In this document: one piece after another, positions 4,942 to 38,551 of the stretch | Layout: every line of letters begins with the position of its first letter | Numbering within the stretch: position 1 is the first letter of the stretch | From: an uncultured Lachnospiraceae bacterium | GTDB taxonomy: Bacteria > Bacillota > Clostridia > Lachnospirales > Lachnospiraceae | NCBI GenBank assembly: GCA_947166015.1 | Contig: CAMVCQ010000010.1 | Coordinates: forward strand, 1-38,805 | Direction of reading: 5' to 3' | DNA: 38,805 bases | Made by a program: the position numbers and the translations under genes | The notes under the pieces: generated by a model | The model's input: the letters and a program-made list of their open reading frames with translations, nothing else | Told to the model about the DNA's origin: nothing | The model's database searches: none

Positions 4942-5565
4942 ATGGCTTTAGTACCTTATGTCATAGAGCAGACCAGCCGCGGAGGCGAGCGTTCGTATGA
5001 TATTTATTCAAGACTTCTCAAAGAGAGGATCATTTTTCTCGGAGATGAAGTAAACGATACAACAGCAAGTCTTGTGGTTGCACAGATGCTTTTCCTTGAG
5101 AGCGAGGATCCGAAAAAAGACATCCAGCTTTACATCAACAGCCCGGGTGGATCGGTGACTGCAGGAATGGCGATATATGACACCATGAATTATGTAAAAT
5201 GCGATGTATCTACGATCTGTATCGGTATGGCTGCGAGCATGGGGGCATTTTTGCTCTCGAGCGGCGCCAAAGGAAAGAGATACTGTCTTCCGAATGCTGA
5301 GGTTATGATCCACCAGCCGTCAGGCGGTGCCAAAGGTCAGGCGACCGAGATCCAGATAGTTGCCGAAAACATTTTGAAGACCAAGAAAAAGCTCAACGAG
5401 ATACTTGCGGCAAACACCGGACAGACAGTTGAGAAGGTGACTGAGGATACCGACAGGGACAACTTTATGAGCGCCGAGGAGGCACTGGAGTACGGACTTG
5501 TCGATGAGATCATCACTTCCAGAAAAGATACAGAAGAAGATAGCGACGACAAAGACAAAGAATAA
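4942..5565 (+). CDS. clpP: ATP-dependent Clp protease, proteolytic subunit
   Basis: 207 aa. It forms the tetradecameric serine-protease barrel that degrades proteins fed by ClpX or other Clp ATPases. The catalytic triad is visible: Ser99 in GMAASMGAF, His124 in VMIHQPSGG, and Asp173 in [15 protein letters not shown]. The start [20 protein letters not shown] matches processed ClpP N termini and leaves little or no propeptide. The C-terminal tail beyond the core is short and strongly charged. AGGAGG precedes the ATG. It lies between tig and clpX at short spacing (24 and 20 bp), consistent with one operon. Confidence 0.97.
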
Positions 5566-5585
5566 CGGAAGGAAAGAGTACAAAA

Positions 5586-6860
5586 ATGGCACATTCGGGT
5601 AATGAACACGGAACACTGTTTCACTGTACTTTCTGCGGGAAAAGCGAAAGACAGGTAGGGAAGCTGATATCAGGTCCCGGCGGGATTTTTATATGTGATG
5701 AATGCGTGGATCTGTGCAACGAGATCCTTGATGAGGAGGAATTCGCCGCAGAAAACGAGTCAGGCTCTGCCGAGGACGAGATAAACCTTTTGAAGCCGAT
5801 GGAGATAAAAGAATTTCTCGATGAGTATGTGGTCGGACAGGAAGCTGCGAAAAAAACGCTTTCCGTGGCTGTGTACAACCACTACAAAAGGATACTTTCC
5901 GGCAAACACCTCGATGTTGATCTGCAAAAGAGCAATATCCTCATGGTGGGACCTACGGGCTCCGGAAAAACCTATCTTGCTCAGACCCTTGCGAGAATTC
6001 TCAATGTTCCGTTTGCTATCGCTGATGCGACTACGCTTACCGAGGCCGGATATGTCGGCGAGGATGTGGAAAACATCCTTTTGAAGATAATCCAGGCAGC
6101 GGACTACAACATTGAGCGCGCCGAGCACGGCATTATCTATATCGATGAGATAGACAAGATCACGAAAAAGGCTGAAAATGTGTCCATAACCCGTGACGTT
6201 TCGGGAGAGGGTGTTCAGCAGGCATTGCTCAAGATCCTTGAGGGAACAGAAGCCAGCGTGCCTCCGCAGGGAGGACGCAAGCACCCACAGCAGGAATTCT
6301 TCCATATAAAGACGGACAACATCCTCTTTATATGCGGAGGGGCTTTCGACGGGCTTGACAAGATCATAAGCCATCGTATCGACCGCAAATCAATCGGTTT
6401 CGGAGCCGAGATAGGTGATGCCACGGATGCAAATGTCGGCGAGCTTTTCGCGCAGGTTCTGCCTGAGGATTTCGTGAAGTTTGGGCTTATACCGGAGTTT
6501 ATCGGACGAGTTCCGATGACCGTAGCGCTCGACCTTTTGTCAGAGGATGAGCTGATGCAGATCCTCACGGAGCCGAAAAATGCCATCACCAAGCAGTATG
6601 AGAAACTTATGGAGCTTGATGATATAGCTCTTGAATTCGAGGAGGATGCCCTTCGCGAGGTTGCAAAGCTTTCGACAGAGAGAAAAACAGGTGCGAGGGG
6701 ACTTAGAGCGATACTTGAAACTGCTATGACAGAGCCTATGTATGAACTTCCGTCGAGAGATGATGTAAATAAATGCATTATTACAAAAGAAACCATCAAG
6801 GGCACTGAAAAAGCCGTTTACAAGATGAATAACGAAAGAATCGCAGATCAAAGCGCATAA
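5586..6860 (+). CDS. clpX: Clp protease ATP-binding subunit ClpX
   Basis: 424 aa. It is the AAA+ unfoldase that recognises substrates and threads them into ClpP. The N-terminal four-cysteine zinc-binding domain is intact (C14, C17, C37, C40). Walker A GPTGSGKT is at 122-129 and Walker B IIYIDEID at 183-190. The sensor and arginine-finger region follows, with [13 protein letters not shown] and a sensor-2 GARGLRAI stretch. An IGFGAEIG loop, corresponding to the ClpP-binding IGF motif, lies in the middle of the AAA module. GGAAGGA precedes the ATG. It follows clpP by 20 bp and precedes lon by 17 bp. Confidence 0.97.
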
Positions 6861-10710: not shown

Positions 10711-10740
10711 AGAGATATATAACAAAGGAGATTTGGAAAA

Positions 10741-12012
10741 ATGAAAATCATGAAGGATGAGTACAAAAGGTACCGCTACTGGGGAGTGACTATTTTTCTG
10801 GCTCTCGCGGCAGTAGTGTTGTTGAACATTGTTCTCGGAAGTGCCGGGTTCATACTCAAAGTGCTTTCGACGATTGTTTCCGCTCTTTCGTCCGTATGGA
10901 TCGGTATGATCATAGCTTACCTTTTGTCTCCTGTAGTGAGGCTTATGGAGGAAAAGCTTTTTATCCCATTGTTTTGCAAGATGACGAAAAAGGATAAAAA
11001 AGGTGTTGCAGGATTGGCGCGAGGTATTTCCGTGACATTGTCGATCCTCCTCACTCTTGCGTTGATAGTTGGATTGCTGGTTCTCGTAATACCACAGGTT
11101 GTAAACAGCGTAGTAAACCTTGCTAAACAGGCCCCGGGATATGGAGAGACGATCAAAGGCTGGTTTGATAAGCTTTTGGCGGACAATCCTTCGTTATCGG
11201 GAATGCAGGGATTTTTAAATGAAGCTTTGGACAAATTGAAGCATTGGCTGCAAAACGATCTGCTTCAGTCGGCAAACCTTCTTGGTACCGTGACAAGCGG
11301 TCTTATGAGCGCTGTGGGAATCGTTGTTGATTTCTTCATCGGACTCATCATTTCAATATATCTTCTTGCAAGCAAGGAAAAATTCCTGCTCCAGGCAAAG
11401 AAAATCCTTGCTGCGATATTCAGTAAGAAAAACTACAAAAGGATAATGGCAGCAGCAAAGGAAACACATCACGTATTTGGTGAGTTTATAAGCGGAAAGC
11501 TTATTGATTCGCTGGTTGTCGGAATCGCGATGTTTATCCTGATGTGGATTATCGGGATACCTTACGCAGTGCTTATCAGCGTGGTGCTCGCGGTTGCAAA
11601 CCTTATACCGTTTTTCGGTCAGTTTATCGGTATCATACCGACTGCACTCCTTGTATTTGTGGAAGATCCTGTCAAAGGACTTATATATGTAGTAGTGGTT
11701 GTTGTGTATATGCAGTTTGACGCAAATGTAGTAAGCCCGAAAATCCTCGGAGATTCGATTGGACTTGGAAGCTTCTGGATACTGTTTTCGATCATTCTTT
11801 TCGGCGGACTTTTCGGAGTATGGGGAATGCTTATAGCAGTGCCTGTATTTGCAATGATCTACCGCTGGTGCACACGATTCACAAACAGGCATCTGAAGAA
11901 AAAAGGATTGCCTGTAGAGGCATTTGCATACAATTCTCCCGGAGAGGATGTGACGGTGCCGGAAGAAGTTGTAGATGCCGGAAAGGATGAGAAAAATGGC
12001 GGGGAACAATAA
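10741..12012 (+). CDS. AI-2E family transporter (UPF0118-type permease)
   Basis: 423 aa multi-pass membrane protein. There are roughly seven to eight hydrophobic segments. An N-terminal pair is followed by a soluble-looking amphipathic stretch around residues 130-180, and a C-terminal bundle carries the family hallmark NLIPFFGQFIGIIPTALL and later DSIGLGSFWILFSI. Members of this family export small molecules or act as sodium/proton antiporters, and the AI-2 role applies only to some, so substrate is not assigned. AAAGGAG precedes the ATG. The last 17 bases overlap the start of the polysaccharide deacetylase gene, which suggests coupled translation. Confidence 0.88.
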   Translation: MKIMKDEYKRYRYWGVTIFLALAAVVLLNIVLGSAGFILKVLSTIVSALSSVWIGMIIAYLLSPVVRLMEEKLFIPLFCKMTKKDKKGVAGLARGISVTLSILLTLALIVGLLVLVIPQVVNSVVNLAKQAPGYGETIKGWFDKLLADNPSLSGMQGFLNEALDKLKHWLQNDLLQSANLLGTVTSGLMSAVGIVVDFFIGLIISIYLLASKEKFLLQAKKILAAIFSKKNYKRIMAAAKETHHVFGEFISGKLIDSLVVGIAMFILMWIIGIPYAVLISVVLAVANLIPFFGQFIGIIPTALLVFVEDPVKGLIYVVVVVVYMQFDANVVSPKILGDSIGLGSFWILFSIILFGGLFGVWGMLIAVPVFAMIYRWCTRFTNRHLKKKGLPVEAFAYNSPGEDVTVPEEVVDAGKDEKNGGEQ

Positions 12013-12946
12013 TAGGCGCAACAAACGCGTCTACAGAAAAAATGACCTGTACAGATCGGATATGCGAAAAAATCGCTCAGGCTGGAACAAAACCAGGATC
12101 ATAGCGGCCTGCGCATGCTTTGTTGCGGCTATAGGACTGATAGTAGTCATCGTCAAGGTGTTTCCATCGGCGAACGAGGCGCCGGACAACACGGCGACAA
12201 GGCTTGCTGAGCTGATCACGCCGACTCCCGCAGCGACTTCGGGTGCAGCAGTACAACCTGAGGGACCGACGCCCGAGCCGACTCCCGAGCACAGAAAAAA
12301 AGCTGTTGCACTTACCTTTGATGATGGTCCGAAATCAGAAGAGAAGGACAAAGGGATCAAAGGAACAAACGCACTTTTGGATACGCTAAAACAATATGAC
12401 GCGCACGCGACATTTTTCGTAGTGGGAAACAGATGTGAGATCGACAAGGATATCCTAAAACGAGAGCTCGACGAGGGACACGAGATCGGAAACCACTCCT
12501 GGAATCACCCACAGCTTGGAAAACTTCCTATGAGCAAGGTCAACAAACAGTTAAACGACACAACGAATACCGTAAAAGAGTTGACAGGCTACAAAATCCG
12601 TCTGGTCCGTCCGCCGTATGGAAGTGTCAGCGACCAGATGCGCAAAAAACTCAAATACCCGATGATCATATGGGATGTTGATTCACTTGATTGGAAAGTA
12701 AATACCGAGGATATATCTGAGGAAGCCAAGGAAAAGAAAATCCTCAAAAACATAAAAGAATCTGTGAAAGACGGAAGCATAATTCTTATGCACGACATAC
12801 ACGAGACATCGTGTAATTCCGTAAAGATCATACTTCCGTGGCTTATCGAGCACGACTATGATGTCCTTACGGTCTCGGAGCTTATGGAAAGAAAAGGCAT
12901 CGGAATGAAAAACGGCAAAGTGTACGCAAGTGCTTCACTTGACTGA
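11996..12946 (+). CDS. Membrane-anchored polysaccharide deacetylase (NodB domain)
   Basis: 316 aa. A basic N-terminal cytoplasmic stretch leads into one membrane helix (about 34-54). A Pro/Thr-rich linker (75-98) is then followed by an extracellular NodB carbohydrate-esterase-4 domain. All five motifs are seen: TFDDG (107-111), the zinc ligands in NHSWNH (H167, H171), RPPYG (205-209), DSLDW and LMHDIH (264-269). The enzyme likely removes N-acetyl groups from peptidoglycan or another GlcNAc polymer. The ATG at 11996 is chosen because AAAGGA lies eight bases upstream; the frame is open from 11975. It overlaps the permease gene and ends before a strong terminator. Confidence 0.92.
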   Translation: MAGNNNRRNKRVYRKNDLYRSDMRKNRSGWNKTRIIAACACFVAAIGLIVVIVKVFPSANEAPDNTATRLAELITPTPAATSGAAVQPEGPTPEPTPEHRKKAVALTFDDGPKSEEKDKGIKGTNALLDTLKQYDAHATFFVVGNRCEIDKDILKRELDEGHEIGNHSWNHPQLGKLPMSKVNKQLNDTTNTVKELTGYKIRLVRPPYGSVSDQMRKKLKYPMIIWDVDSLDWKVNTEDISEEAKEKKILKNIKESVKDGSIILMHDIHETSCNSVKIILPWLIEHDYDVLTVSELMERKGIGMKNGKVYASASLD

Positions 12947-12994
12947 TGCTATGTAAAAATGGATAGTGGATCGGATTTATCCTGAATAATTTCT

Positions 12995-13031
12995 TAAGCC
13001 GCCTTTTCAGGCGGCTTATTTTTTTGTTTTT
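12995..13031 (+). terminator. Rho-independent terminator after the deacetylase gene
   Basis: A perfect 9-bp GC-rich stem (TAAGCCGCC/GGCGGCTTA, 12995-13018) with a six-base loop is followed at once by a long T-rich run. It closes the permease-deacetylase unit and separates it from the accessory region that follows. Confidence 0.9.
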
Positions 13032-13055
13032 GTAACCTTTTTGTAACGCTAACTG

Positions 13056-13064
13056 TGCTATGAT
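13056..13064 (+). promoter_or_regulatory. Extended -10 promoter element of the 826-aa surface protein
   Basis: TGC directly before TATGAT (13059-13064) makes an extended -10 element. No good -35 is present at 17 bp. Position, about 75 bp ahead of the ATG and just after a terminator, supports a promoter. Confidence 0.45.
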
Positions 13065-13137
13065 GGGCTTGTAAATTTCAAAAAATTGAGTTTTTTTGGT
13101 GGTAACGGCAATATGATCGTTTTAAGGAGGGCTGGCG

Positions 13138-15618
13138 ATGAAACGAATTACAAAACGGATAACATCATTAACGCTTGTGTTTGCTGTGACAGCGGCATCC
13201 GTATGCGGTGGTGTTCGTATCAAAGGAGTGATGCCGCAGGGGAGTGTGGCAAAGGCTGCAACAGAGAATAAAGCGTTTATCAGGGATGTTGCCATAAGCT
13301 ATGCATCGAGTAGGGAGCAGGCACAGAAAGAATTCGGAGATGAGTATACCATACTTGAGAAAAAGGTCGGAGAGTCCTGGGTTGGATATACCACAACTGA
13401 TGATCCGGATATGGCCATCCGTGATATCAAGGTTCAGTCGATGTCCGGAAAATACTCTGTTTCGGACTATAAAGAGCTTTTGAAAAACCACAAAGAAGAG
13501 ATAAAAAGCCAGGTGGACATTTTTGTACCGGCACTTATCGAGTTTACCAAAAACTATGATTCCGGTTTAGGTGCTGCTGCGATCATCTGCAAAAATCTGA
13601 ATTGCTTCTATGAAGATGATTCCGATATGGGACTCGGGGATTATCTGTTAGAGCAGGGACACCGATTGATCAGCAATTCAAATGATGCATCCGCAAGAGA
13701 AAAACTTGAAAAAATATACATAGAGGCAAACACTGATCTTGTCCAGGAAATGGAAAATATCATTGCTCAGGGTGCAGATGCCAAAGTAGCGAAAAAAGGA
13801 ACCTGGTTGAGCAGGATGAGCGAACTGGGACCTCATGGCTTGATCGATCAGTATAAAAAGGCAGATAAGACTCTAAAGTCGGATGGAGCGGTAAATAACA
13901 AACTGGAAAAAGAATTGGGCGATGATGCGGCTGCGATACTGAAAGAGCTTCCGACAGTACAGAGTTATATTCGTGAAAAAGAAGGAGTGGATGTGGTAAA
14001 AGCTATTGAAGAGGGAGATGCCTCCAAGGTGGATGAGCTGTCAAAACAGGTTGCCGACAAGGAGGATGCTCCTGAGCCGACTGATGAATCGACGATTGAA
14101 CAGGTCAGAGAATCGTTGGGACAATCACTGGATAGTATGCCCGATACCTTGGGTTTTAATGAGGATGTAAATGTTGGGGCACTGGTACTTGTTCTGAAAG
14201 GAACCCGGTATGGAGATCAGACGATGTATGACTTTTTGATGAATGAAAAGATTAAAAAATCTGATCTTTATACAATGGCGTATGTCCTTTCAGAGGGACA
14301 AAAGTCCATCATAGGAGACGTCGGTTTGTTCTCGATCCTGCAGGGGGCAGCGACCGGATATGCTGACGAAACCGAAGATACTGACAATCTGGTTGAAACT
14401 GTCGGTGAGAAGGCGTTCTCAATCTACGATGGAGTTGACAGAGATGTATTTAAAGGAGACACGGCACTTACAGAGGATGCGATCAAAAGAATGCAGACGG
14501 ATAATGATAACAACGCACTCACTACATCCTCCTGTGTTTCGGGATTCTTGGCAGGATTTGCCGCATGTGTCGGTGTTTTCTGTACTTATAAGATGCTTAA
14601 ATCAACAGTTTCTTTTACCAAAGAGCTCAACTTAAAACTCACATTACCTATACAGGAATCGGAGGCATTTATAAAAGCTGACTTGTCTGTGCAGAAGCTT
14701 CAGCAGGAATTGGATATAATGGCTAAAAACGATCATGCGTTAAAGATTAAAATGTACCAGAAATCCGGAATCTTGGACAACTTTAAGTTCAGTATAATTA
14801 ATAAATCGTCCGCAGAACTTGAAGCGGCATATAATGAGGCAATCGAACAGATAACAAAGGCCGGTCGAAAAACTGAGTTGGTTTTCTTCTATAAGGAAGC
14901 AGAGAAGACATTCATTGAAGAAAGAACATTCAAATTACAGCAAAAAATAGCGCTTCGTGAACAGGTGCTCGCAAAGGGAGAGTTTGTTAAATACAGTAAA
15001 GTCACAGAAACTACTACCAAATCGGTTTCGAAGGGTGCCAGAATTGTATATGGTCTGGGTGCGGTTGCAGCCTTTGCATTTGCAGGATATGAGATTTACC
15101 AATTGGTGAAAAAAGATCCAAAAGTAAACTATACGGAAATTCCGGCAAAAATGGTATCCAGAACCTATGATGGTGATGAAATCCAATATATGACATACAG
15201 TGTTGCCAGGACAAAGGACGGCAAAAAAGCAGATCTCAGGAACTGGAAAGGAAAAGAATGGGTAGCACTCTACACTACAACAGATGATTTGGCTGGAGAT
15301 CCGATACTTGCATCAACACTGGTGTCGAGTGATAAAAACACAGTGCCTGCTGCTGATTGCAATCCTGTCAGTGAGTTTTGCAAGTCTGATGTGTACAATG
15401 TATCGGAAAACGGCGCTGCTTACCTGTTCTTCAAAACCGGAACAAAAGGTACTGCGGTTTCAGACGATACTAACTCCGATGGAGGAGCAACAGGAACAGA
15501 AGGTGCTGTATTTGGCGGATCGGGTATGATCTGGATCATCCTTCTGATTGTAGTAGTTGTTGTTGGTGTGGGTGCAGGAACAGCGATCTTCATCAGAAAA
15601 CGCAAAAAGACAGAGTGA
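13138..15618 (+). CDS. Large exported multi-TM protein of unknown function
   Basis: 826 aa; I do not recognise a characterised family. It starts with a signal peptide (basic MKRITKRIT, a hydrophobic stretch, then AKA before ATENK). Three further hydrophobic segments are seen near residues 463-486, 632-656 and 796-819; the last is followed by the basic tail RKRKKTE. The long stretch between segments two and three is charged and helical. Two short regions resemble each other: SWVGYTTTDDP near residue 80 and EWVALYTTTDD near 705. They suggest a repeated extracellular module flanking a membrane or intracellular core. AAGGAGGG precedes the ATG. A 15-bp hairpin follows the stop. It heads an accessory-looking block. 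Confidence 0.7.
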   Translation: MKRITKRITSLTLVFAVTAASVCGGVRIKGVMPQGSVAKAATENKAFIRDVAISYASSREQAQKEFGDEYTILEKKVGESWVGYTTTDDPDMAIRDIKVQSMSGKYSVSDYKELLKNHKEEIKSQVDIFVPALIEFTKNYDSGLGAAAIICKNLNCFYEDDSDMGLGDYLLEQGHRLISNSNDASAREKLEKIYIEANTDLVQEMENIIAQGADAKVAKKGTWLSRMSELGPHGLIDQYKKADKTLKSDGAVNNKLEKELGDDAAAILKELPTVQSYIREKEGVDVVKAIEEGDASKVDELSKQVADKEDAPEPTDESTIEQVRESLGQSLDSMPDTLGFNEDVNVGALVLVLKGTRYGDQTMYDFLMNEKIKKSDLYTMAYVLSEGQKSIIGDVGLFSILQGAATGYADETEDTDNLVETVGEKAFSIYDGVDRDVFKGDTALTEDAIKRMQTDNDNNALTTSSCVSGFLAGFAACVGVFCTYKMLKSTVSFTKELNLKLTLPIQESEAFIKADLSVQKLQQELDIMAKNDHALKIKMYQKSGILDNFKFSIINKSSAELEAAYNEAIEQITKAGRKTELVFFYKEAEKTFIEERTFKLQQKIALREQVLAKGEFVKYSKVTETTTKSVSKGARIVYGLGAVAAFAFAGYEIYQLVKKDPKVNYTEIPAKMVSRTYDGDEIQYMTYSVARTKDGKKADLRNWKGKEWVALYTTTDDLAGDPILASTLVSSDKNTVPAADCNPVSEFCKSDVYNVSENGAAYLFFKTGTKGTAVSDDTNSDGGATGTEGAVFGGSGMIWIILLIVVVVVGVGAGTAIFIRKRKKTE

Positions 15619-33625: not shown

Positions 33626-35233
33626 ATGGCTGTTAAGTATGTATTTGTGACCGGAGGAGTTGTATCAGGACTTGGAAAGGGGATCACAGCGGCATCGCTT
33701 GGAAGACTTCTCAAAATGAGAGGCTACCAGGTGACTATGCAGAAGTTCGATCCGTATATCAATATCGATCCGGGTACCATGAACCCTATCCAGCATGGAG
33801 AGGTTTTTGTGACGGATGACGGTGCTGAGACTGACCTCGATTTGGGACATTATGAAAGGTTCATAGACGAGAGCCTCACCAAACAGAGTAATGTCACCAC
33901 CGGAAAGGTTTATTGGTCGGTACTTTCCAAAGAGAGAAGGGGGGATTATGGCGGAGGAACCGTGCAGGTTATCCCGCATATCACCAATGAGCTCAAAAGC
34001 CGTTTTTATCGTAATGACGGCTGCAAGGATACACAGATCGCCATCATAGAGGTCGGAGGAACGGTCGGAGACATCGAGAGTCAGCCATTTTTGGAGGCTA
34101 TTCGTCAATTCCAGCTCGACATAGGACATGAGAACGCAATCATTATACATGTCACGCTTGTTCCGTATCTCAGGACATCCGAGGAGCTTAAATCAAAACC
34201 CACTCAGCAGAGCGTCAAAGAATTGCAGGGAATGGGAATCCAGCCGGATATCGTTGTATGTCGTACCGAGATACCGCTTGATAAGCCGATCCGCGACAAA
34301 ATCTCACTGTTTTGCAATATCCCAACCACGCACGTTATCCAAAACCTCGATGTAGAGACACTCTACGAGGTTCCGCTTGCGATGGAGCAGGAGGGACTTG
34401 CTCAGATAGCCTGCAAATGTCTTCAGCTTGATTGCCCTGAGCCGGAGATCAAAGAGTGGCAGGAAATGGTTGAAAATATCAAAAATATCAAAAAAGATGT
34501 GCATGTGGCGTTGGTCGGCAAGTACACCGCGCTTCACGATGCTTATATCAGTGTGGTTGAGGCGTTGAAGCATGGCGGTTACGCACATGGAACAAATGTA
34601 GATATTCATTGGGTGGACTCTGAGGAGATTACGCCTGAAAATGTCGGAGAGCACTTAAAAGGAATGAGCGGAGTGATCGTGCCGGGAGGATTTGGAGAGA
34701 GAGGCACGGAGGGTATCATCACTTCCATACAGTATGCAAGAGAAAATGAAATCCCGTACCTCGGACTCTGCCTTGGCATGCAGCTTAGTATGGTAGAGTT
34801 TGCAAGGCATGTGATCGGTTGGAATGATGCTCACAGTGCTGAGCTTGACCCTGCAACTACACATCCGGTCATCCATCTGATGCCGGATCAGGACGGAGTT
34901 GAGGATATCGGCGGTACGCTCAGACTCGGTTCTTATCCGTGTGTTCTTGCAGAGGGAACCAAAGCAAGAGAGCTCTATGGAGCAGAAACAATCAACGAGA
35001 GACACAGACATAGATATGAGGTTAACAATTACTATAGAGAAGACTTTGAGAAAAACGGCATGGTCCTTTCGGGACTCTCGCCTGACAACAGGATAGTCGA
35101 GATGATGGAGATTCCGGATCATCCGTGGTATGTAGCTACTCAGGCACATCCGGAGTTTAAGTCAAGACCAAACCACCCGCATCCGCTTTTCAAAGGATTT
35201 ATCGGAGCAGCGGTTAAAAAAGCAGAATCTTGA
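33626..35233 (+). CDS. pyrG: CTP synthase
   Basis: 535 aa. It aminates UTP to CTP with glutamine and ATP. The N-terminal synthetase domain has [30 protein letters not shown] and GGTVGDIES. The C-terminal class I glutaminase domain has its nucleophile Cys382 in GLCLGMQ and the His-Glu pair in QAHPEF. The ATG at 33626 follows GGAGG; the frame is open from 33614. I looked for the run of G at the transcript start that drives pyrG control in many Firmicutes and did not see it near a convincing promoter. The last 20 bases overlap the end of the convergent gene. Confidence 0.96.
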
Positions 35234-35744
35234 TAGCTTTTTTTGAGAGATAGATAGCGGGCACGATTCCGTTTGAGGGATTATGGACCACATCGCCCAT
35301 CAGGTGTCCGCTCACATCGACAACCCAGTTGTATGGGATGTGCAGATTGCCGTAGGGAGATCTCAACCAGTAGGGCAGAGTTTTGTTCGGGATATTGGCA
35401 CGCCAATCGCAAAACTCGCTTTTGGAAAGCAAAAAAAGCTTGTCCAGGGAGCGCTCGGTCTGATAGTCGAGCAATTCTTCCTCGGGAACATTTTTCAAAG
35501 AAAGAGCAGTCTTGATCGGCGTAAGCCAGACATCATACAGATATGATCTGCAGTACGCGTCCTTCCATCTGTTGGTGGAACCAAAGGCCATACGAAACAA
35601 GGCATCATGGGAAAGCGCGATATATCCGTAACCGGACTTGGCGACCACGTCCCACTGCCTGTATTTTTCTTCGATCATCAGAACGAAAGATTTTTTCAAA
35701 TAAGGGTCTTCAAATGAAGAATCATCATTCGTAGGGCTGTTCAT
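35214..35744 (-). CDS. DUF6273-like domain protein
   Basis: 176 aa. The second half resembles the DUF6273 fold by pattern: [10 protein letters not shown], then a beta stretch with [11 protein letters not shown] and [11 protein letters not shown] at the end. This is a motif judgement from memory. The first half is helical and charged ([19 protein letters not shown]). There is no signal peptide or membrane helix, so it should be cytoplasmic, whereas I mostly recall such domains on exported proteins. TGGAGGAA precedes the ATG, which supports a real gene. It converges on pyrG with a 20-bp overlap of coding ends. Function unknown. Confidence 0.75.
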
Positions 35745-35861
35745 AGCTTCCTCCAGATATGGTGATTTTCACATGGGCATAAAAAATGTATTGCAGATAC
35801 AGTATAACATCATTTTTTCAAAATATCTATAAAAATTTTCAAAAAATAAGGAGGAATAAGG

Positions 35862-38093
35862 ATGAGAAATTCAAGGAAACTAAAGGCGATCATTTCAATG
35901 GCCCTGGCGATAGTCATGGTTTTGACATCGACAGCTGTGCTCTCACCGAAAAAAGCGGAAGCGAAGACGGTGCTCATGGATAAGACTATTTCGCTCAAGT
36001 ACAACAAGCACGCTGATTCCAGATACAACTGGAATGCGCAGCAAAGTATTTGGGGATTGGTAGCAAATCCAAAGAAAAATGCCACCTACTCCGTAAAGAT
36101 CAAAAACAAAAAAGTGGCAAAGGTTGCTACAAATAAATTCGAAGAAAAGAACCATAAAAAAATCATAGCTGCAACCGGCATAGGAAACACTACCGCAACC
36201 GTATACGAAACGAAAAACGGCAAAAAAACCAAGGTTGGCTCCATCAAGATCAAAGTCGGAAAAATGAAGATGTGTGATGCGATAGAGTCAAACTGCAGGT
36301 TGACAGAAGAACTCTATCCGCGCGATCAGCTGTTTAGTCCGTATATGGACATAGATAGGATTGACTTTGCAAATGTCATCCAAAACGAAATGCTAAACAA
36401 TGACTATGTGGGTGTTCATTTCAAAAAAAGTGAATACAGTGTGAAATACAGTATGGAGTTTGACAAATACGATCCGGATGATCCGGAAGCTGAGCTGCCG
36501 CCTGTAACGGATGATGAGAAATGTGCTTCGATCGACTCAAAAGGTATAGTCACAATGCTCAACGAAGATGTACCTGGAACTGTGTCTGCAATGATCAAGT
36601 TCACAATCACATTCAGCGATAAATCCAAGTTTGAACACAACACAACTGTTGAGGTCAGAAAAGATTCATCTATCAAAAAAGAAGGAAAGTACACTCTGGA
36701 TAATATCAGGGATTATGTGATAGGTATAGATACTCCGGTTCCACATAATTATACCAATCCTGAAAAAGAAATGTCAGCGATTCCGGAACCGCACAATGAT
36801 TACGGCCCTGCTGCGCCACTTATCTGCTTTGATAATGCGTCAACAACTCCTGAGTTGACACCGGTAAAAGAAGAAATAGAAAAAGAAAAGCTGATCTACG
36901 GTTCGATAGGTAGAGGGTATTCGTATAAATCAAATCATTGTACCGAGGTTTACAACAAGACCAGAGAAAAGGTCCTGGATTTCCTAAAGGCAGATTCATC
37001 AAAATACACCTGCTTTTATGTAAACTCGACGACCGACGGACTCAATAAGCTTGCATCGGCACTTATCACGAGCAAAAATGATATCGTCCTCACAACGAGG
37101 ATCGAGCATCACGCCAACGACCTCTCTTGGAGAAACAGATGTAAGTGCATGTACGCCGAGGTTGACAAAGAAGGTCGTGTGATCTACGAGGATATTGAAA
37201 AGATATTAAAAGCGCAAAAAGGCAAGGTTAAGCTTGTCTCAGTGACAGCAGCATCAAATGTCACAGGATATGTAACTGATGTCCGCAGGGTCGCAAAGCT
37301 TGCGCACAAGTACGGTGCTATGCTTGTTGTTGACGGAGCGCAGATCGTAGCCCACAGAGAGTTCAGTATGATCAATGATCCGGATGATACAACGGATGAT
37401 GTTGATTTCATATCATTTTCAGCTCACAAGATGTACTCTCCCGAGGGTGGCGGAGCAGTAGTCGGACTTACAAAAGAGCTCAACAGACACCTCCCTACAT
37501 TCTATGGAGGAGGAACCGTAAATATCGTCGGAGATGACGAAGTAAGCTACAAGGACGCACCAGCAACATACGAGGCGGGATCACCTGATTATCTGGCTGT
37601 TGTTGGACTTGGAAAAGCCATAGATATACTTTGTGATGTCGGATTTGACAAGATCAAAGAGCACGAATACAAACTCAACAGAAAAGTTATAGATGCTCTA
37701 AATGACAAGGAAAAATACCCGACCGGAATTGTTTACGGAGACACCGAAAAAATCGATGACAAGGTCGGAGTTGTGACATTTAACTTCAACGATGTAAACT
37801 CAGAGCTTCTTGCCACATGCTTAAGTGAGGGTGCAGGGATCGCAACCAGACGAGGCTTGTTCTGCGCACATCCTTATGTATTCAGACTTATGGGAATCGA
37901 CCTTGACGGTGTGGTAGGATCATTTGAGAATTGCGGAAGCTTAAAAACACCCGGTATGATAAGGCTTAGCTTTGGTATCTACAATACCGAAGAAGAGGTT
38001 GACAAATTCCTCGAGGTGCTTCCGATGGTAAAGGAAGATGCAAAGGTGTTAAATGCACTTCCTATGTATGCGGAAGCGATTGAGGAGTATTGA
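35862..38093 (+). CDS. Exported Ig-like / class V aminotransferase (SufS-like) fusion
   Basis: 743 aa. A signal peptide (about 1-34, ending KAEAKT) is followed by beta-rich Ig-like sequence to about 285. From about 287 to the end is a complete fold type I PLP enzyme close to class V aminotransferases and cysteine desulfurases. It has FDNASTTP, the EHHAN histidine His416, Asp491 and Gln494 in VVDGAQ, and SAHKMYSPEGGG with PLP-binding Lys523. The segment ATRRGLFCAHP puts Cys668 where SufS has its R-x-G-x-x-C-A-x-P catalytic cysteine. All key residues look intact. AGGAGG precedes the ATG. Export is inferred from the signal and Ig-like part. The substrate is unknown: it could be a desulfurase, another lyase or an aminotransferase. 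Confidence 0.85.
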   Translation: MRNSRKLKAIISMALAIVMVLTSTAVLSPKKAEAKTVLMDKTISLKYNKHADSRYNWNAQQSIWGLVANPKKNATYSVKIKNKKVAKVATNKFEEKNHKKIIAATGIGNTTATVYETKNGKKTKVGSIKIKVGKMKMCDAIESNCRLTEELYPRDQLFSPYMDIDRIDFANVIQNEMLNNDYVGVHFKKSEYSVKYSMEFDKYDPDDPEAELPPVTDDEKCASIDSKGIVTMLNEDVPGTVSAMIKFTITFSDKSKFEHNTTVEVRKDSSIKKEGKYTLDNIRDYVIGIDTPVPHNYTNPEKEMSAIPEPHNDYGPAAPLICFDNASTTPELTPVKEEIEKEKLIYGSIGRGYSYKSNHCTEVYNKTREKVLDFLKADSSKYTCFYVNSTTDGLNKLASALITSKNDIVLTTRIEHHANDLSWRNRCKCMYAEVDKEGRVIYEDIEKILKAQKGKVKLVSVTAASNVTGYVTDVRRVAKLAHKYGAMLVVDGAQIVAHREFSMINDPDDTTDDVDFISFSAHKMYSPEGGGAVVGLTKELNRHLPTFYGGGTVNIVGDDEVSYKDAPATYEAGSPDYLAVVGLGKAIDILCDVGFDKIKEHEYKLNRKVIDALNDKEKYPTGIVYGDTEKIDDKVGVVTFNFNDVNSELLATCLSEGAGIATRRGLFCAHPYVFRLMGIDLDGVVGSFENCGSLKTPGMIRLSFGIYNTEEEVDKFLEVLPMVKEDAKVLNALPMYAEAIEEY

Positions 38094-38125
38094 TAATTGG
38101 AGCACAGCGACATTCACTGATTCCC

Positions 38126-38400
38126 GGGCCCAGGAGATCGAAAATGTCTTTCTCGCAAAGCTCGAAAGTCGGGGAAAATAAACACAGGTGTTTATTTTCC
38201 CCGCGGGTTAATGGTAGATTTTGTTGGGCCCAGGAGATCGAAAATGTCTTTCTCGTTGAACTCGAAAGACATTGAAAATAAACACAGGTGTTTATTATCC
38301 CCGGTGCCTATTGTTCGATTCATCTGCCCAGGAGATCGAAAATGTCTTTCTCGCTGCGCTCGAAAGCCATGAAAATAAACATAAATGTTTATTTTCCCCG
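38126..38400. repeat. Three tandem ~100-bp units, each with two inverted repeats
   Basis: Units begin near 38126, 38226 and 38324 (periods 100 and 98 bp). Each has GCCCAGGAGATCG, then CTTTCTCG, five variable bases and CTCGAAAG. In the second unit this forms a full 10-bp stem, 38243-38252 with 38264-38273. An AT-rich palindrome follows; in the first unit it is a perfect 15-bp stem at 38171-38202. The third unit changes both arms (CAC/GTG to CAT/ATG), keeping pairing. The rest of the gap from 38094 holds no gene I can support. Confidence 0.85.
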
Positions 38401-38422
38401 CGTGTTCGAAACAGTGACCATA

Positions 38423-38465
38423 TAAAAATAATATCCCATAGCTTTGCTATGGGATATTATTTTTA
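38423..38465 (-). terminator. Terminator of tRNA-Trp (works on both strands)
   Basis: A perfect 20-bp stem (38423-38442 with 38446-38465) and a three-base loop flanked by A/T runs on both sides. On the minus strand it begins right after the tRNA discriminator base and ends in a T-run. On the plus strand it would stop read-through from the repeats. Confidence 0.88.
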
Positions 38466-38536
38466 CAGGGGGCCCAGGAATCGAACCCGGCTCAAAAGTT
38501 TTGGAGACTCCTATTCTACCGATGAACTAGCCCCCT
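38466..38536 (-). tRNA. trnW: tRNA-Trp (anticodon CCA)
   Basis: 71 nt on the minus strand. The acceptor stem AGGGGGC/GCCCCCT pairs fully, with G as discriminator. The D stem GTTC/GAAT, the anticodon stem GGAGT/ACTTT (two G-U pairs) with loop CTCCAAA, a four-base variable loop, and the T arm CCGGG-TTCGATT-CCTGG all form. CCA is not encoded; TAAAA follows the discriminator. It closely resembles Bacillus tRNA-Trp, as recalled. It has a clear promoter and terminator. Confidence 0.96.
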
Positions 38537-38551
38537 AGAACAACATCGCCT

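Follow-up and report, generated by a model that had tools for sequence, protein, structure and literature searches.

The locus analysed here raises the question whether a cysteine desulfurase-like enzyme works outside the cell. Textbooks place cysteine desulfurases in the cytosol or in organelles, and a search of the open-access literature for one described as extracellular, secreted, periplasmic or exported brought up none. A preliminary description of the window (the whole stretch of DNA analysed, 38,805 nucleotides from an uncultured Lachnospiraceae bacterium) had proposed an exported SufS-like PLP enzyme fused to Ig-like domains. The open reading frame on which this proposal rested is present, and a strong Shine-Dalgarno sequence with the core AAGGAGG lies a few bases 5' of its ATG. 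The gene and the encoded protein are laid out as follows:

35847-35857 (approximate span), + strand: Shine-Dalgarno-like AAGGAGGAATA, 5' of the ATG, read from the sequence
35862-38093, + strand: whole gene of the predicted exported SufS-like class V PLP enzyme, 743 aa, ATG start
35862-35963, + strand: predicted Sec-type signal peptide, residues 1-34, cut after AEA (A34), from sequence features and the model
35964-36263, + strand: Ig-like domain 1, residues 35-134, from predicted structure and Foldseek
36324-36656, + strand: Ig-like domain 2, about residues 155-265, from predicted structure and Foldseek
36687-36815, + strand: N-terminal arm of the enzyme family, residues 276-318, beginning YTLDNIRDYVIGIDTPVP, from the alignment
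36816-38036, + strand: SufS-like class V PLP catalytic domain, residues 319-725, from Pfam, the model and Foldseek
37011-37013, + strand: C384, a Cys confined to the signal-peptide-type exported subclade (11/11), from the alignment
37107-37109, + strand: H416, equivalent to the catalytic His of SufS above the PLP ring, from the alignment
37332-37334, + strand: D491, equivalent to the Asp at the PLP ring nitrogen, from the alignment
37428-37430, + strand: K523, equivalent to the Schiff-base Lys of PLP, from the alignment
37863-37865, + strand: C668, equivalent to the persulfide Cys, in RxGxxCAxP, from the alignment

The arm at residues 276-318 is common to most single-domain relatives too. Pfam Aminotran_5 spans residues 322-716 (E 2e-75), and the nearest solved sequences to the catalytic domain are those of B. 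subtilis SufS. The active-site set is complete, comprising H416, D491, Q494, K523, R663-x-G-x-x-C668 (in the context RRGLFCAHP) and R701, and includes the residues of group II cysteine desulfurases (PLP Lys, His, Asp, the Cys of RxGxxC and the substrate Arg). None of H416, D491, Q494, H522, K523, R663, C668 and R701 varies in the 12 exported homologues, and almost all of the 34 further homologues that have letters at these positions keep the same catalytic residues. All four residues named in the preliminary description (K523, H416, D491 and C668) were thereby confirmed, and the loss of the PLP pocket that it had considered was not observed. The full-length model (mean pLDDT 87.5, pTM 0.82) has a SufS-like fold: its best PDB matches in Foldseek are SufS structures, with TM 0.89 by target length to B. 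subtilis SufS, an rmsd of 2.3 A and 30% identity. Position 350 is Gly in all exported rows and His (HRG) in B. subtilis SufS, and roughly 20 residues are inserted after the Cys motif.

The earlier label “SufS-like” stands for a catalytically complete enzyme predicted to be exported, but not for SufS proper. With the SufS model TIGR01979 the protein scores 257 bits, below the NCBI curated cut-off of 475 bits; the canonical SufS of the same genome scores 520 bits. The selenocysteine lyase model SclA (117 bits), encapsulin-cargo desulfurase models and others also match, and no family model passes its cut-off with the window protein. In this genome sufS is followed on contig C29 by a rubrerythrin-like gene and sufU, and NifS is found beside ThiI. 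No suf gene was seen beside the window gene; at locus L047 the distance from the enzyme gene to suf-like genes is about 6 kb. The tree separates the SufS rows from a clade (support 100/99) that unites the exported rows with a set of single-domain enzymes of Clostridia. All 11 signal-peptide-type rows included fall into one group (100/100), which is placed near the lipoprotein form L121 and the single-domain L053. By these sequence comparisons the window enzyme is not SufS itself but a member of a separate subfamily, in which most enzymes look cytosolic and one subclade looks exported by interchangeable leaders.

Export was judged by simple rules: a positive n-region, a hydrophobic core, an AxA site and no match in cytosolic relatives. 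By these rules rather than by a trained predictor, the window protein carries the Sec-type signal peptide that had been claimed for it, with an n-region charge of +4, a hydrophobic core that starts at residue 10 (mean Kyte-Doolittle 3.0) and the AEA motif. In the model this region forms a helix at residues 2-24 with low pLDDT at 25-32; no anchor motif was seen in the protein. The earlier reservation that the N terminus might not be an export signal is answered by the homologues, whose N termini behave as such signals. Within the exported subclade we found Sec + Ig-like leaders (in the genus and in genome G040), Sec + Big_2 (L120), Sec + a low-complexity linker (L119) and a lipoprotein signal with the lipobox LSAC (L121). 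The copy in G037 (L048) has lost its 5' start at a contig end, so that its leader lies outside the sequence. In G536, from another family, the exported form occurs with a broken frame (L172, about 5000-6358) and a lipoprotein-like leader in a nearby frame; this copy is either a decayed gene or an assembly error. The changing leaders thus all look like export signals, including the one with the lipobox, and in an order-wide search no convincing leader was found in the single-domain relatives examined. This retention of export through exchanges of the leader is the best reason to think that the enzyme's place of work is outside the cell. An argument for an extracellular fold from disulfides was dropped: C384, C427 and C691 were export-specific in the first alignment only. 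In the wider alignment C427 also occurs in three single-domain relatives without leader and Cys residues near position 691 in other relatives, leaving only C384 cleanly export-specific.

Residues 35-276 modelled alone form two tandem beta-sandwiches (pLDDT 86), and their Foldseek matches are the Sap S-layer, SraP, Rib domains, cadherins and Ig domains. Since these matches combine good E-values with a low whole-length TM of about 0.3, “Ig-like” is to be read as a statement of fold class. Regarding the Ig-like domains described earlier, the predicted structure and its resemblance to surface modules bear them out, but Pfam gives little support: no Big family matches the window protein above cut-off, and a weak Big_2 match was found in three of nine homologues. 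Among 61 relatives the module was found in front of this enzyme only.

The enzyme is carried by 9 of the 39 genomes searched in the genus and, in a family-wide sample, by 5 of 397 genomes, the window genome included. A search for the same fusion, as the preliminary description had advised, returned full-length homologues of the same architecture in sister-genus genomes and one other genus (G007, G009, G011, G012, G016, G026 and G040). Between the window gene and L050, dN is 0.127 (about 0.13) in the enzyme part with dS at about 2, near saturation; it rises to 0.26-0.29 in the Ig domains and 0.44 in the leader. The gene is under strong purifying selection, and the order of the dN values would be expected of a working enzyme behind a fast-changing leader. 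Because full-length homologues share the architecture and the enzyme part has such low dN at this dS, the fusion is not due to chance.

Exported rhodaneses were found fused or adjacent to the enzyme in four genomes. In G026 (L046, 12196-14922, - strand) a 908-aa in-frame fusion joins a signal peptide, Big_2 (E 6.8e-06), rhodanese (E 1.4e-16), the Ig-like module and the SufS-like enzyme. In G011 (L043) the gene of an exported protein with a Big_2-type Ig domain and a rhodanese (CRSGxR) ends 3 bp before the first ATG of the enzyme, and in G016 (L045) and G010 (L061) an exported Ig-rhodanese gene lies directly 5' of the enzyme gene. The only rhodanese of the window genome (L062, 186-989, - strand, on contig C51) likewise has a signal peptide and Big_2, and its CRSGNR matches the CxxGxR rhodanese signature given in a passage of PMC8931425; its gene and that of the enzyme are on different contigs. 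Across 145 relatives this rhodanese type is present in 5 of 10 enzyme carriers and in 3 of 135 others (Fisher p 2.6e-5, ignoring phylogeny). G321 (L119) has rhodaneses as well, one of them a lipoprotein. No rhodanese match was found in the carriers G009, G012, G037, G040, G340 and G478, all at least 90% complete. Since these six well-assembled carriers manage without it, the rhodanese is not obligatory and the enzyme can probably work alone. The physical linkage of an exported rhodanese to the enzyme favours a persulfide as product, and a natural desulfurase-rhodanese fusion of Pseudorhodoferax (CD-Rhd) is described in PMC8931425, in the passages concerned, as bifunctional with both reactions in vitro.

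The rhodanese is the only neighbour met repeatedly in the exported set. Deriving an operon function from the neighbours was rejected, MoeA (L119), mnmA (L120) and cysND with sulfate-transport genes (L048) being single cases; the neighbours of cytosolic relatives (SpoVB-like, PEPCK-like, NfnAB-like, one DsrE-type in L056) did not settle the function either. At L119 (1602-11150, G321) about 33 bp separate the gene of the exported enzyme from the MoeA gene that follows it, and the cluster also contains molybdenum-hydroxylase-like genes and genes for FAD/Fe-S oxidoreductases. L048 has, adjoining the enzyme gene and near cysD/cysN and sulfate-transport-like genes, a gene at 11854-13587 (- strand) for a secreted Ig-like protein that is tyrosine-phosphatase-like (HCTYGKDR) with a possible L,D-transpeptidase-like part. 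In L056 the DsrE-type sulfur-carrier gene (10726-11202) is directly 3' of a single-domain relative, with the NfnAB-like genes nearby. In the window itself, the enzyme gene is adjoined by a gene at 35214-35744 (- strand) for a 176-aa protein with sub-threshold similarity to DUF6273; a similar gene flanks the enzyme in L050 and, differently arranged, in L049. Positions 38119-38406, in the interval from the enzyme gene to tRNA-Trp (38465-38537, - strand), are occupied by a 100-bp unit repeated in tandem, in about three copies, with arms able to form a hairpin; the unit has no other copy in the genome, and the copies may be repeated terminators.

An enzyme of this kind would need PLP outside the cell. 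Neither PdxS nor PdxJ was found in the window genome and in several carriers, which therefore probably take up vitamin B6. Periplasmic PLP enzymes have precedents in a broad-spectrum racemase (PMC6034422) and in the class V enzyme PvdN (PMC7497351 and references there), so that the earlier statement that the class V relatives are cytoplasmic was too strong.

Taken together, we consider it rather probable that the protein is an extracytoplasmic cysteine desulfurase, handing persulfide sulfur to the exported rhodanese where there is one and otherwise relying on another release or acceptor. The computed evidence comprises the catalytic residues, the fold, selection, the conserved export leaders and the rhodanese linkage; counted against it are the carriers without rhodanese, the separate contigs of the two genes in the window genome, the missing PdxS/PdxJ, the Gly at position 350 and, for a place at the surface as opposed to free secretion, the lack of an anchor motif. 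The protein would be made with its Sec signal peptide, cross the membrane unfolded, lose the leader and fold outside, where the two Ig-like domains may serve as a spacer or surface module ahead of the SufS-like domain. We infer that PLP is bound there and that cysteine is the substrate of a group II-type reaction: cysteine would react with the K523-bound PLP to give an external aldimine, C668 would accept the sulfur as persulfide and alanine would be released. The rhodanese, where present, would then receive the C668 sulfur on the cysteine of its CxxGxR motif, whereas genomes without it would release sulfide or a low-molecular persulfide or use another final acceptor.

An exported PLP lyase of the same fold might instead act on another substrate, such as selenocysteine, cystine, a cysteine S-conjugate, cysteine sulfinate or a surface peptide, with the rhodanese handling a different S or Se product. 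The sub-threshold SclA and encapsulin-cargo matches, the His to Gly change at 350 together with the insertion, which could alter specificity, and the molybdopterin gene (MoeA) and molybdenum-hydroxylase-like cluster at L119 lean this way, but neither the catalytic Cys nor the equivalents of the two substrate Arg residues vary, and persulfide fits the rhodanese linkage best; we consider this unlikely, though it deserves some weight. That the exported protein is non-catalytic, either apo for want of PLP or a binding or structural surface protein, appears improbable to us. PLP is phosphorylated, no export of it is known, and both PLP synthesis genes are absent; however, the enzyme part is the most conserved, its active-site residues do not vary, and the periplasmic racemase and PvdN do work.

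The two remaining explanations deny export. A cytoplasmic enzyme for Fe-S or tRNA sulfur supply, its N terminus being no functional export signal, would agree with the near relatives outside the subclade, which all look cytosolic, and with mnmA and queuosine-pathway genes adjoining L120. Independent leaders including a lipobox, Ig-like modules, relatives lacking such a leader and the existing cytoplasmic pairs SufS + SufU and NifS + ThiI make it very improbable. An artefact of gene calling or assembly, joining the 5' end of a surface protein gene to a cytosolic desulfurase, might be suspected in a draft genome of 130 contigs. It is refuted by the independent assemblies with the same architecture and by the occurrence of the module ahead of this enzyme only, and we regard its chance as negligible.

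As a tentative extension of the extracytoplasmic desulfurase, anaerobic Gram-positives may possess a dedicated sulfur relay outside the membrane, in which external cysteine would supply a surface desulfurase with the sulfur for a persulfide, to be handed on to a rhodanese likewise at the surface. The enzyme and the exported rhodanese in sister species suggest surface sulfur chemistry that is normally kept inside the cell. If the relay exists, cells could make sulfide or persulfidate targets outside the membrane. Should a desulfurase work at the surface of gut Clostridia, cysteine-derived sulfide and sulfane sulfur would arise where host, diet and neighbouring microbes meet, and how a Sec-exported enzyme acquires PLP outside the cell would become a directly testable question, for which the linked rhodanese is a ready-made assay partner.

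Each part of the arrangement is known, but we did not find an exported desulfurase subclade linked to an exported rhodanese described in the open-access literature. SufS (group II, TIGR01979) shares the fold, the catalytic residues and the RxGxxCA motif; the window enzyme differs in its lower model score, its signal peptide and Ig domains, the Gly at the His of HRG, the insertion after the Cys motif and the lack of a SufU partner seen next to the gene. PvdN of pyoverdine maturation is also an exported fold type I PLP enzyme, and its model NF051467 matches the window protein weakly (25 bits, cut-off 650), but it modifies a siderophore instead of desulfurating and is Gram-negative. The periplasmic broad-spectrum racemase Alr of P. 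putida is likewise a PLP enzyme with an export sequence working outside the cytoplasm (PMC6034422); such racemases are generally known to have an unrelated fold and reaction. PspE-type periplasmic rhodaneses (a lead is in PMC3733917) resemble the exported partner as single-domain rhodaneses outside the cytoplasm, but are not known to have an Ig domain or a linked desulfurase. The closest parallel to the linkage is given by CD-Rhd of Pseudorhodoferax and cytosolic desulfurase-sulfurtransferase pairs, in which, according to passages of PMC8931425, a desulfurase is likewise joined to or adjoins a rhodanese. Those passages mention no export for CD-Rhd, whereas here both partners have export signals and Ig domains, and in the G026 fusion, unlike in CD-Rhd as described there, the rhodanese is N-terminal.
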